33,696 nucleotides of DNA from an uncultured Paracoccaceae bacterium (GTDB taxonomy: Bacteria; Pseudomonadota; Alphaproteobacteria; Rhodobacterales; Rhodobacteraceae): positions 1 to 33,696 of the forward strand of contig CALKJA010000047.1 of assembly GCA_937995865.1 (NCBI GenBank), in the 5' to 3' direction. The translations under genes were made by a program, and so were the position numbers. Shown one piece after another: positions 7,953 through 33,541 of the stretch. How positions within the stretch are numbered: position 1 is the first letter of the stretch; each line of letters starts with the position of its first letter. The notes under the pieces are model-generated. The model had not been told where the DNA came from and searched no databases. It saw only the letters and a program-made list of their open reading frames with translations.

Positions 7953-8130
7953 CAGTCGTTATACGGACTCAGAGTCCGAAATCAATACTAAAAATTCAGA
8001 ACCCTGGCGGCCAATCGGCCAGCTTGTTAAATCGCTCCGCCAAAAATCAGTCGCCGCTATGAATAACGGCCTGTTTGAGGTCGCCGAGGAATACCACGCT
8101 CAGTCCATCGAAGCGGAGGTGGGAGAATGA
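7942..8130 (+). CDS. Small hypothetical protein
   Basis: A 62-residue protein from the ATG behind AAGGAG at 6-base spacing (MTVNSRYTDSESEINTKNSEPWRPIGQLVKSLRQKS). The helical C-terminal half ends FEVAEEYHAQSIEAEVGE. The stop overlaps the start of the replication-initiator-like gene as ATGA. Function unknown. Confidence 0.6.
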   Translation: MTVNSRYTDSESEINTKNSEPWRPIGQLVKSLRQKSVAAMNNGLFEVAEEYHAQSIEAEVGE

Positions 8131-8543
8131 GCGGCTGGTTTGCAGTAAAGCGCGGCATGACAGAGCACGACGTAATGCGCGGTGATTTCGCCCGCGTTGG
8201 GTGGTTCTTATGGATGATCGATAACGCTGTCTGGAGGGACACCCAGATCGACTTGGGGGGACGCCCTCATACAGTTCCTCGAGGCTCTCTTTGCTATTCG
8301 CAGAGGTTCATGGCCCAGAAGTTTTCTATATCCACGAAAGCTTTAAGAACCTTTCTTTCTGACCTTGAGCGACACAAAATCATAGAAACTGAGGTGGTTT
8401 CTACCGGGATCGGAACGAAAACAAAACGGACACAAGTAACCCTTTGTAATTACGACAAATATCAAGATTTCGGAAACAAGAGGGAAACAAGAGGGAAACA
8501 AAGAAGAACAAGGAAACAATATTCCCGTAGGGACGACCGATAA
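8127..8543 (+). CDS. Replication initiator-like protein, N-terminal part (frame-disrupted)
   Basis: The first 115 or so residues form a winged-helix domain of the phage replisome-organiser/O-like kind: MIDNAVWRDTQIDLGGRPHTVPRGSLCYSQRFMAQKFSISTKALRTFLSDLERHKIIETE, then TQVTLCNYDKYQDFG. It should bind the phage origin. After YQDFG the frame becomes an Arg-rich tail of rare AGA/AGG codons and stops at 8543. The expected C-terminal part is open in the +1 frame from 8449 to 8859. The change of frame falls in two copies of the 11-mer GGAAACAAGAG plus a partial third. Either the gene is broken, or the two parts are joined by slippage or frameshifting. Confidence 0.7.
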   Translation: MSGWFAVKRGMTEHDVMRGDFARVGWFLWMIDNAVWRDTQIDLGGRPHTVPRGSLCYSQRFMAQKFSISTKALRTFLSDLERHKIIETEVVSTGIGTKTKRTQVTLCNYDKYQDFGNKRETRGKQRRTRKQYSRRDDR

Positions 8544-8859
8544 ATCGGCGTCTGGTAACTTGGTTGATATCAGCTCTCCGGAAGCGGCTGTCTGGGCGAT
8601 AGGCAAAGCTTACCTAACGCCGATGATAGGCAAGGCTAAGGCCGGACAGATGGTCGGTAAGTTCCTCAAGCAATCTGGGGGTGATCCTGTTCCAGTTATG
8701 TCAGCAATTGAAGCGGCAAGAAAATCTGGAACCCAAGACCCAATCCCGTACATCACGGAAGCGCTCAACAGTGCGAAGTCAGGCAAGTCAAAGTTTGTTA
8801 GCTTTGAAGAGCAAGACCGCATCCGTGCCCAGCGAGCGCTGGACTTTTACCTGTCATGA
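8449..8859 (+). pseudogene. Replication initiator-like protein, C-terminal part in +1 frame
   Basis: Open from 8449 with no ATG or ribosome site near its beginning; the ORF track starts at an unlikely TTG (8560). The translated part reads KQEGNKEEQGNNIPVGTTDKSASG, a natural linker, then SSPEAAVWAIGKAYLTPMIGKAKAGQMVGKFLKQSGGDPVPVMSAIEAARKSGTQDPIPYITEALNSAK. That second stretch resembles the C-terminal domain that follows the winged helix in related phage replication proteins. It overlaps the N-terminal frame by 95 bases. Adding one more 11-bp repeat unit would fuse the two into about 247 residues. Confidence 0.65.
8472..8503 (+). repeat. 11-bp tandem repeat at the frame switch
   Basis: GGAAACAAGAG occurs twice head to tail (8472-8482, 8483-8493) and continues into GGAAACAAAG. 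Because 11 is not a multiple of 3, gain of one copy shifts reading exactly into the frame of the C-terminal part. Confidence 0.85.
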
Positions 8860-8871
8860 TTGGAGCAAGAT

Positions 8872-9213
8872 ATGAAATCGGCAAGCGAGATACTGCAGGA
8901 CGCAGGCATATCTGTTCGCAGGCAGTCGGGAAACCAAAGGGCGTTATGCCCGGAGTGCAGCCATGCGAGGCGCAAGAAAACGGACCCCTGTTTGAGCGTT
9001 TCGTTTTTACCGGACGGTGTGGTTTGGAATTGCTGGCACTGCGGCCATTCAGGGGGGCAGATCTATGGCAGTAGATCCCATGACTTGGCTAACGACATCT
9101 CGAAACCTAGACGCCGATCTTTTGGAATTCATGGGCATCAAGAGGGTAGAGCACGGCAAACTGGGAACGGCTCTAGCATTTCCGTACATCAGAGACGGCA
9201 AGCCTTACGCTGA
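8872..9213 (+). CDS. Primase zinc-binding domain, separated from its TOPRIM-helicase
   Basis: The start MKSASEILQDAGISV follows GGAG. Residues 21-62 (RALCPECSHARRKKTDPCLSVSFLPDGVVWNCWHCGHSGG) are the Cys4 zinc ribbon that opens T7 gp4-type primases and reads the template for primer synthesis. After GHSGG the frame passes a G6 run and becomes arginine-rich nonsense that overlaps the helicase frame by about 150 bases. With five G residues the frame would continue as GHSGGRSMAVDPMTW into the helicase, giving about 531 residues, close to T7 gp4 length. The domain is either lost by frameshift or made as a short separate protein. Confidence 0.7.
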   Translation: MKSASEILQDAGISVRRQSGNQRALCPECSHARRKKTDPCLSVSFLPDGVVWNCWHCGHSGGQIYGSRSHDLANDISKPRRRSFGIHGHQEGRARQTGNGSSISVHQRRQALR

Positions 9214-10468
9214 CAAGTTCAGGGGCAAGGACAAGACGTGGTCAAGCACTTCCGGTGTGACAAGAGGGCTTTATAATTCAGACGTCCTGAGCCAAATGCC
9301 AGCCCTTCCAGTTGTGATAACCGAAGGTGAAATAGACTGCCTTTCTGTAATGCAAGCAGGGTTTGAGCGGGCGGTGTCTCTTCCTGATGGATGGACAGAA
9401 CAGGGCAACAAGACTGAAGCGCTTGTGGAATCTCAGGCTGCGCTTATGGCCGCGCCCTTTGTCATAGTGGCAGGTGATAACGATGCCGCTGGGGAGAGTT
9501 TGCCAAGAACAGTTGCGAACCTTCTAGATGGTCAGGACGTGAGGTATGCCGAGTGGCCCGAAGGGTGCAAAGACGCTAACGACGTGCTTTGCAAGCTGGG
9601 TGAGGGTGAGGTGGCTGCGTGCCTGAACCGCGCATCTCGTATCGATCCGCCCGGCGGGTTTATAACGGGCTTTTCGAACTTGCCGCCGTTGTCGCGTCGT
9701 CGCGTTTTATCGGCTCCGCACCCACTGGTAAGAAATAGGCTCGCATTTGAACTTGGAGCAATGTCGGTAGGCACAGGTACGCCTGGGGCGGGAAAGTCAA
9801 CATTCTCAACATGGGTTTGGGATGCAGTGACGAGACATGAGCGTGTTAGAGTTGGGCTTCTTAGCTTCGAGACGCACCCGCATAGAACCAGAGACCATTT
9901 GTCTAGGCTGGCCACTGGTAGGCCGTTCGACCTGCTTTCTAGAGACGAAAGAGAATCGCTACTGGCAGACCTAGATACTCGGTTTCGGCTTGTGCATAGA
10001 ACATACGACAAGACGCTGCACACTATTGGTTGGCTGGAAAAAATGGTTCGCACATTGGCCGTTCGTGATGGGTGCAAATTGATATGCATCGACCCATGGA
10101 ATGAGCTGGAGCATTTGCCAGAGCCGGGCGAGAGCTTGACCAACTACATCAACTTTGCGCTTCAGCAAATTAGGCAATGGGCTGAAAAGCTTGAGGTCCA
10201 TATTTGCGTCATTGCGCACCCAAAGAAGATGGATTTTGGCCGAGAGCCGCGCGCGCCTATGGGATACGACATCGCAGACAGCGCAGCGTTTTTCAATAAG
10301 CCCTCTTTGGGCTTCACGGTCCATAGCGCCAAGACAGAAGCTGGCACGCCATTTGTTGAAATATACACATGGAAAGTGAGGGACGCGCAACTTTACGAAA
10401 TCAACAAAGGCCGAAGTGAGGCCAGCTTTGATGAGCAGACAATGGGTTACGAAGACTTGGAAATCTGA
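9065..10468 (+). CDS. Bifunctional TOPRIM primase / DnaB-type replicative helicase
   Basis: 467 residues from the ATG of MAVDPMTWL, preceded by AGGGGGG at 7-base spacing. The TOPRIM fold is clear: VVITEGEIDCLSV (about 83-95) and VIVAGDNDAAG (about 133-143), with KDAND following as in T7 gp4. The RecA-like helicase core has Walker A GTGTPGAGKST (about 236-246), Walker B LICIDPWNEL and the sensor-like VHICVIAHPKKMD. It unwinds the phage fork and may also prime. Without the zinc domain it corresponds to the short, helicase-only T7 gp4B form. The upstream zinc domain lies in a different frame across a G6 run. Confidence 0.9.
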   Translation: MAVDPMTWLTTSRNLDADLLEFMGIKRVEHGKLGTALAFPYIRDGKPYADKFRGKDKTWSSTSGVTRGLYNSDVLSQMPALPVVITEGEIDCLSVMQAGFERAVSLPDGWTEQGNKTEALVESQAALMAAPFVIVAGDNDAAGESLPRTVANLLDGQDVRYAEWPEGCKDANDVLCKLGEGEVAACLNRASRIDPPGGFITGFSNLPPLSRRRVLSAPHPLVRNRLAFELGAMSVGTGTPGAGKSTFSTWVWDAVTRHERVRVGLLSFETHPHRTRDHLSRLATGRPFDLLSRDERESLLADLDTRFRLVHRTYDKTLHTIGWLEKMVRTLAVRDGCKLICIDPWNELEHLPEPGESLTNYINFALQQIRQWAEKLEVHICVIAHPKKMDFGREPRAPMGYDIADSAAFFNKPSLGFTVHSAKTEAGTPFVEIYTWKVRDAQLYEINKGRSEASFDEQTMGYEDLEI

Positions 10469-31900: not shown

Positions 31901-32036
31901 CGAACCCGTTGTGCTTGAGGAAATGCGCGCCCCGTTGGGCGTTCTGGGGCAAGAGGTCATCAAGCAGGAAGATGCAGCCCTGACGGCAGCATATCGCGAC
32001 GTTGCAGCCATTTGGAAAGCCGGAGTAGGTGAATGA
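31821..32036 (+). CDS. Outer-membrane spanin lipoprotein (Rz1-like)
   Basis: 71 residues in another frame, overlapping the i-spanin by 80 bases. The lipobox is clear: MLKKARVIPLTMTLGCATLLTGC, with LLTGC giving the lipidated Cys. The mature part (LRTDEPVVLEEMRAPLGVLGQEVIKQEDAALTAAYRDVAAIWKAGVGE) is helical. It should span the periplasm with the i-spanin and disrupt the outer membrane. Confidence 0.75.
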   Translation: MLKKARVIPLTMTLGCATLLTGCLRTDEPVVLEEMRAPLGVLGQEVIKQEDAALTAAYRDVAAIWKAGVGE

Positions 32037-33541
32037 ATAATCTTGGTTTCGGTATCCGGTTGCGGTCGCAGATTGCGGGCTTGGGCCTTTCAATACCTGA
32101 CATCACGACCCTAAACGGCTATATCGCACACTACACAAGCGCTGGTTTCGTTGATGATGGGACGGGCAATGCAGAGCGCTGGGACGCTGCAAATTCTTCT
32201 GGGCTGAACTTAACGCAGACGAATGCGGCGGATCGCGTGGCTATCAGCGGCGACACTCTTGATTGGGGCCTCACCGGGCTGAACTCGCAGCGCTACGTTA
32301 CGCCTACGTGGCCATCAATCCCGAAAACTATTGCTGTAGTTTACCAGATGACCAATGGCGCAACTGTATGGCCTGAGTTCCATGACTGGGTAGGCGGAAA
32401 CGGATTGTCCGTTGCAGAGCGCGCAAACCGAATTTGCACAGATGACGGAACAAACACGTTCTTTACTGAGCAATCTGGCGCGGCCACACTTTATAGAAAC
32501 ACCGTTCAAACGTCTGAGTTCTTGCCAACGCCAGAACGTATCGTTGTATTTTTCACAAATCCGGCTGGCATTCCATTTAAAGCATTCGGCAATAACGAGG
32601 TGTCAAACCGCAATCTTGTGGGCGAAACACCAGCGCTATTTGTGTTTTCAGAGGTCTTGACGGAAGCGGAAATGCAGACCGTTGTAGACATATCTGTACG
32701 TGATCACGGTGTTGTTTTGGGTGCCATAGACACACCACTTGCCGACCGGGTGGATGCTATATCGTCATACGCAAGCGTGTACGACCTTGTGAACGATACG
32801 TCCCTTTATACAAAAGGCACGGCGACAGATCGTTATAATATGGCCAGCACCGCGAAGACAACCGGCGCAATACTCGTTTATGACAAGATGACTGACCCTA
32901 ACGACACAACGAATTGGGGCACCCTGGTTACCGGTGCCAGCAACATGAGCGGCATTGGCGCAGCGGGCGGCACGCGTTACCTGCAGGTCGGACAGCAATA
33001 TCCATTGGGTGATTTGCTAAGAATATCCATGATCGCCAGCAGCAACACAGCCGCAACCATGATCGGGGTCTGGCTTCAAGAGAATGAGCCTGAAAGCTAC
33101 CCAACGCTTGCGGCCAATTTCTATGATAGCATTGGTATGCTGGGCACGGAGGGGTCAAATCCATCTGGTGCGGAAAGCGACCTCAATTCCAATTTCACCA
33201 CGCGCGAAGACGCCCTTATTCTCGCACAGCACATTGAGGCAGGTGCAAACTACAATACCGCGCCAGCAGGCGGCGTATCCCTCGTGGACCTCATGGGGAC
33301 AGGTTCTTATGTATGCCCAACTGTCAACGGCATCGATTTGACCGTAACGCACAGCACTGACCTTGTGACAAGGTATCCCGGCCTGTCTATAAAGGGCGGC
33401 TCTCTGTCTGGCACGGCTTGCGCAGTTGGTATTTACGAAAACGGGACAGGTGGAAAGATTGCTATAGTTGTTGGCGATGGCCCCGATAGCGACACCCGCT
33501 GGGAAGACGTGGAATGGGCTATCTTGAAATATGGTGGCTGA
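32033..33541 (+). CDS. Lectin-like plus PBP-type serine hydrolase (D,D-peptidase-like) fusion
   Basis: 502 residues overlapping the o-spanin stop (ATGA). The N-terminal half (about 20-230) resembles the LamG/concanavalin-like domains of phage tip proteins (ITTLNGYIAHYTSAGFVDDGTGNAERWDAAN, TIAVVYQM, LVGETPALFVFSEVLTEAEMQ). From about 235 it is an S11-like serine hydrolase: SxxK in MASTAKTTGAI (S272, K275), SxN in IASSNTA (S336-N338), KxG in SIKGGSL (K454-G456). The linking signatures also fit (YPLGDLLRISMIASSNTAATMIGVWL; MLGTEGSNPSGAESDLNSNFTTREDALILAQHI). No signal peptide. It could be a virion protein that modifies peptidoglycan. Confidence 0.82.
   Translation: MNNLGFGIRLRSQIAGLGLSIPDITTLNGYIAHYTSAGFVDDGTGNAERWDAANSSGLNLTQTNAADRVAISGDTLDWGLTGLNSQRYVTPTWPSIPKTIAVVYQMTNGATVWPEFHDWVGGNGLSVAERANRICTDDGTNTFFTEQSGAATLYRNTVQTSEFLPTPERIVVFFTNPAGIPFKAFGNNEVSNRNLVGETPALFVFSEVLTEAEMQTVVDISVRDHGVVLGAIDTPLADRVDAISSYASVYDLVNDTSLYTKGTATDRYNMASTAKTTGAILVYDKMTDPNDTTNWGTLVTGASNMSGIGAAGGTRYLQVGQQYPLGDLLRISMIASSNTAATMIGVWLQENEPESYPTLAANFYDSIGMLGTEGSNPSGAESDLNSNFTTREDALILAQHIEAGANYNTAPAGGVSLVDLMGTGSYVCPTVNGIDLTVTHSTDLVTRYPGLSIKGGSLSGTACAVGIYENGTGGKIAIVVGDGPDSDTRWEDVEWAILKYGG

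Follow-up and report, generated by a model that had tools for sequence, protein, structure and literature searches.

How does the replication initiator of a prophage come to be spread over two reading frames that overlap at an 11-bp tandem repeat? The locus lies in a stretch of 33,696 nucleotides from an uncultured Paracoccaceae bacterium (contig CALKJA010000047.1), the whole of which is referred to here as the window.

One initiator gene in two frames

The frame of position 8127 reaches its first stop at 8541-8543 and, in the translation of the window, encodes a product of 138 amino acids. In the +1 frame, a stop at 8437-8439 leaves the sequence open from 8440 up to the following stop at 8857-8859. 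The overlap of the two frames recorded in a first-pass annotation is real, but it measures 104 nt and not 95, the second frame being open from 8440 and not 8449. The same annotation had taken the two ORFs for halves of one replication-initiator-like protein, and this was confirmed by comparison with known families and with intact relatives. The N-terminal part (8127-8543, forward strand), which comprises a winged helix and the start of a linker, matches PHROG 2514 ('DnaD-like helicase loader') with an E-value of 1.5e-12 over profile positions 2-130 of 270. A single ORF of Pseudohalocynthiibacter aestuariivivens BS-W9 (G036, loci L019/L027) covers both halves, with 53% identity between the N halves and 47% identity (E-value 5e-16) between its C half and the C-terminal part of the window gene (8440-8859, forward strand, +1 frame), which alone had no family match. 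L028 and L017 are likewise fused, and the linker is in frame in every one of more than 40 homologues from viral contigs and genomes, most of them found with the N half alone. Alignment to intact homologues, a check named in advance, returned single ORFs in all relatives and never separate genes. Homology in frame 0 stops at the array, the last 13 or so codons of 8127-8543 being out-of-frame nonsense, and the homology of the +1-frame part to intact relatives starts near 8503. As judged from sequence, positions 8127-8859 are one gene, cut in two by a frame break, for a prophage replication initiator made up of a winged helix, a disordered linker and a helical C-terminal domain. A separate downstream gene with its own start was also considered and was rejected, its start being unconvincing by eye and the relatives fused.

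The repeat at the break, GGAAACAAGAG (8472-8501), was described at first as two copies plus a partial third, and TRF indeed gives 2.7 copies with a period of 11, a 100% match and a score of 60, the highest of any tandem repeat in the window. The spacing from KYQ to EEQ.NNIPVG is 48 nt in G036 and L028, the two nearest relatives, and 37 nt in the window. The window gene is therefore short by 11 nt, exactly one repeat unit, and one extra copy would restore the frame, as had been predicted. The first-pass annotation had also offered two ways in which the split could be functional. According to one of them, ribosomes pass from the first ORF into the second by a programmed +1 frameshift, in keeping with their long overlap and with the rare AGA/AGG codons of frame 0. 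However, the split occurs in no relative, the shortfall equals a repeat unit, frame-0 homology ends at the array and not at a slippery site, and the AGA/AGG codons merely reflect A/G-rich repeat DNA that is being read out of frame; we find such slippage barely credible. According to the other, a reversible change in unit number toggles the initiator and hence prophage replication. Perfect tandem copies of a unit whose length is not divisible by three would suit this phase variation, but no out-of-frame allele exists among the more than 40 other homologous linkers, a search of the window's own genome found no second copy, and the array appears to have another role at the DNA level. The array is also short, and with only 2.7 units slippage should be rare. 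A phase switch is very unlikely, and an initiator broken by mutation or by assembly error is the more likely explanation.

The annotation had named fresh inactivation and assembly error as well; both still stand. We give about an even chance to a real loss of one unit, which would make the window copy a slippage loss-of-function allele of a resident prophage. A little short of even, in our estimate, is the chance that the prophage carries an in-frame array of which one unit collapsed in the draft, the gene being unbroken in the organism. The repeat is short and perfect, the draft consists of 219 contigs and is 87% complete, no other gene among those checked is broken, and the C-terminal part, at its 47% identity to G036, is undecayed. 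Yet assembly kept the frame in L010, L046, L030 and phage pCB2047-A, whose arrays are equally perfect. Current assemblers usually cope with an array of about 41 bp, which speaks against a collapse. An exact-DNA scan of IMG/VR gave no match to the array DNA, so that this collection holds no close relative for direct unit counting; a nucleotide search against cultured phages gave no match, and neither did the same-genus genome G231. The choice between artefact and real loss touches the break only; the reading of the repeat as part of a replication origin, developed below, stands either way.

The initiator is followed by a zinc-ribbon ORF and then by a Toprim/RecA primase-helicase, neighbours that mark a prophage replication module. 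The integrase, repressor-like regulator, terminase, portal, capsid, tape measure, tail fibre protein and endolysin look intact, and a search for a circular contig or att repeats, signs of an excised, active phage, found no shared ends. The DnaG-type zinc-ribbon ORF (8872-9213) overlaps the primase-helicase ORF (9065-10468) by 149 nt; the latter, in the +1 frame, has an ATG of its own and a Shine-Dalgarno-like stretch rich in G. All six related loci viewed (L019, L028, L051, L052, L053 and L054) show this frame relation and overlap too, and the pair is predicted to be a split gp4-like primase, made via an internal start or a frameshift. One of these loci, L028 (PUMX01000379.1, 3528 bases), is filed under a Candidatus Hydrogenedentota MAG although its replication module is much like those of rhodobacteral phages, and is possibly a misbinned phage contig. 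At the end of the window contig, the last ORF (32033-33541, 502 aa) had no PHROG match; its C-terminal part resembles by eye a serine hydrolase or D-Ala-D-Ala carboxypeptidase, and it may be a moron or a virion-associated enzyme.

An 11-bp period at a constant place in the linker

The first-pass annotation was right about the size of the break but missed a probable function of the repeat itself, as origin iterons, in nearly all relatives. Nearly all of them carry a tandem array at the same place in the linker, mostly with an 11-bp period, while the unit sequence differs from gene to gene (AAACCAAAAGA, GCTAACACAGG, GGCACAGCAAG, CAACACAGGAG, CCGGACAGAAA, CGGGGACGCGA and others). The best 24-nt self-match at lag 11 averaged 17.9 in the linkers of 41 homologues, compared to 13.2 after synonymous shuffling, 10.7 after shuffling of codon order and 9.6 in the N-domain. 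Lags 10 and 13 remained at background level, and 9 of 42 sequences matched themselves best at lag 12 (the period is 12 in L012, L045, L048 and L050, and L023 has no clear period). The window linker scored 20/24, and none of the shuffles, whether of codon order or of synonymous codons, came up to this value. A period that persists despite sequence change and is not divisible by three indicates selection at the DNA level, and its retention across differing units points to binding sites one helical turn apart. Alternatively, the repeats could lack any DNA function and merely encode a protein linker of low complexity in which Q, N, T and K abound. The linkers are indeed hydrophilic and of low complexity, and their predicted structure has low confidence (pLDDT under 50 at residues 116-155). 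However, repeated residues cannot yield a period of 11, and synonymous shuffles keep the protein yet lose much of the signal (13.2 against 17.9). The ATA codon constraint and the co-variation with the recognition helix, both given below, also argue against this alternative, which we consider unlikely.

In the window, the core GGAAACAA occurs at 8472, 8483, 8494 and 8512. The first three cores form the main array (8472-8501, forward strand), one unit below the number expected from relatives. Upstream, iteron-like copies with cores near 8417 and 8428 lie inside the wing codons (8416-8435, forward strand) in 11-bp phase with the main array: the repeat-pair spacing is 55, or 5 x 11, and core matches fall at -49 and -38. 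They are followed by a conserved, AT-rich and codon-constrained element of 30 bp that encodes VTLCNYDKYQ (8436-8465, forward strand; consensus aTAAc.aT.TGtAATTAcGA.AAATAtCAg), which we propose as a putative unwinding or binding element. Behind the array, the A-rich tract AAGAAGAACAAGGAAACAATA (8502-8522, forward strand), near-identical in the DNA of G036, L028 and L032, contains the fourth core. AT content is 0.70 both at 8436-8465 and at 8496-8525. The short inverted repeat TCCCGTAGGGA (8522-8532, forward strand), weak and not significant alone, sits where other homologues have longer hairpins.

The same layout recurs in the homologues. When each gene was searched for its own core, 58 iteron cores were found in wing codons compared to 18.9 expected, and they recur at about -73, -61 and -49. 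Over 41 homologues, an AT excess flanks the main array on both sides (-45 to 0 and +60 to +105). The segment encoding ITICNYDKYQ, between the two iteron clusters, exceeds the gene mean in AT by 0.26, and the A-rich tract behind the array (+60 to +105) by 0.14. Codon choice is constrained as well: the isoleucine at -10, whose codon lies outside the conserved-peptide pattern used to search for homologues, is encoded by ATA in 32 of the 33 genes that have it, compared to 115 of 546 isoleucines elsewhere (p about 1e-19), and in GC-rich genes the figures are 16/16 against 24/236. In many homologues an inverted repeat stands behind the array, with a mean stem of 5.7 against 4.5 expected and up to 10 bp in L017. 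Hairpins in the coding sequence were observed in L017, L029, L038, L002, L008 and L009 at about +85 to +132 after KYQ, often with loops of the form C-TAAC-G or C-TATC-G; their place is near constant and their structure kept, while their sequence is variable. They may serve the origin as a site for priming or assembly.

Co-variation with the recognition segment and extent of the family

Along most of the gene, the DNA of L030 matches that of L051 at 93-100% identity, but the codons of the recognition helix and wing differ, and every iteron differs in step with them (AACACAGG against GGCACAGC). Across 33 homologues, which are not phylogenetically independent, iteron similarity tracked the similarity of the recognition segment when the rest of the N domain was controlled for (partial Mantel p = 0.0005); wing codons and iteron copies overlap, so the two are partly entangled. 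As modelled by AF2 (mean pLDDT 67.7), the G036 protein has a winged helix with a recognition helix at 72-84 and a wing at 88-108, a linker at 116-155 where the iteron DNA is located, and a C domain of four helices. From the co-variation and the L030/L051 pair we infer, indirectly, that the winged helix would bind the iterons. A PDB sequence search returned nothing meaningful, and Foldseek retrieved generic winged-helix proteins only, none with an E-value below 0.001. The entry 4pt7 ('Structure of initiator', Foldseek rank 17) was too weak to use.

The DnaD-like N-terminal winged helix is present in the PHROG 2514 matches (1.5e-12 for the window, 9.9e-16 for G036) and in the model of the G036 protein. 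Pfam gave no match to a C-terminal DnaD domain (DnaB_2) in either G036 L027 or the C part of the window gene, so 'DnaD-like' is used here as the PHROG name only, and the window initiator appears to share only its N domain with DnaD-like loaders. C domains vary among relatives: that of phi575 is Pfam DnaB_2, and that of L006 is weakly DnaT-like. Twelve initiator genes came from cultured phages, and in eight of these the linker contains an 11-bp array that is significant (pCB2047-A, phi575, PVL, Pascal, 000TH010, Shewanella 3/49, HSA84 and Palmer). The array of A403 was borderline, and A006, A500 and Vibrio 1.189.O had no significant 11-bp array. The DnaD-like phage loaders of PHROG 2514, 186 and 7498, for example those of the Staphylococcus phages PVL and phi575, resemble the window gene in the winged helix, the NY..YQ motif and the 11-bp linker arrays; phi575 differs in its DnaB_2 domain, which in the window clade is replaced by another helical C domain without family match. 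Separately, OP712483.1 (Pseudomonas phage PSV3, 8631 bases) may be a mislabelled or chimeric record, since its initiator has exactly the identity, E-value and bit score obtained for several Staphylococcus phages.

We think it likely that one origin design is concealed in the coding sequence of a whole superfamily of phage initiators, a large one that combines a winged helix and the NY..YQ motif with varied C domains and has hosts in Pseudomonadota, Bacillota and Bacteroidota. The linker would hold the 11-bp iterons, and the wing that reads them would carry more copies in its own codons; an AT-rich element under codon constraint would lie between the two, with A-rich DNA, and in many cases a hairpin, following the iterons. 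The iterons would evolve as a unit with the recognition helix and the wing, and the 11-bp spacing would lock iteron number to the reading frame.

A putative origin inside its own initiator gene

Very probably, then, the repeat represents the iterons of a phage replication origin located inside its own initiator gene, and the window copy is one iteron short. The sequence features of such an arrangement, direct repeats within the gene and AT-rich DNA adjoining them, are both found here. The DNA of the wing and linker would double as the origin, its 11-bp iterons flanked by AT-rich elements for unwinding and in many cases by an inverted repeat. The winged helix of the initiator would bind the iterons, the bound initiator would melt the AT-rich DNA, and the C-terminal domain would recruit the helicase, so that the phage primase-helicase is loaded, in the manner of lambda O together with P and of SPP1 gp38 (PMC7466680, PMC6022878, PMC6316719). 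As the C domain of the window clade has no Pfam match, helicase recruitment rests on the PHROG naming and on gene order. The window copy as assembled, with three iteron cores in its main array and not the four or so usual in relatives, would have lost function: since 11 is not a multiple of three, the missing unit would shift the frame, give the N half a nonsense tail and remove the C-terminal domain.

What appears as a frameshift oddity thereby becomes an origin prediction from sequence alone, for many temperate phages. The origin reading would also explain the repetitive, Q/N/T-rich linkers of DnaD-like initiators, and the L030/L051 pair, together with the co-variation of iterons and recognition segment, offers a direct route to the DNA-recognition code of the winged helix. 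Caution is advisable with 'frameshifted' initiators in draft genomes, where origin iterons may have collapsed. Our literature searches turned up the lambda/Stx and SPP1 cases, but no account of iterons for DnaD-like initiators or of such an 11-bp phage iteron; a prior description in reviews (e.g. Weigel and Seitz 2006) is possible.

Origins inside initiator genes are known from other phages. In lambda (gene O with ori-lambda) and the Stx phages, the origin lies in the middle of the initiator gene and its iterons adjoin an AT-rich tract; the phages differ in their number of iterons, four versus six, which changes protein length (PMC7466680, PMC6022878). Loss of lambda ITN4, the 24-bp ori98 deletion, abolishes complementation by O (PMC6022878). 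The lambda iterons are 18-19 bp long with internal symmetry, whereas those of the window are 11-bp direct repeats of about one helical turn, so that, unlike in lambda, single-unit changes break the frame. The window initiator also belongs to a different family and has extra iteron copies in its wing codons. In SPP1, the replisome organizer encoded by gene 38 binds direct repeats in its own gene (oriL) beside an AT-rich unwinding element (PMC6316719). The likeness to gene 38 is one of origin layout. SPP1 has a second origin and a separate gp39 loader and gp40 helicase, whereas the window encodes a fusion of helicase and Toprim primase.
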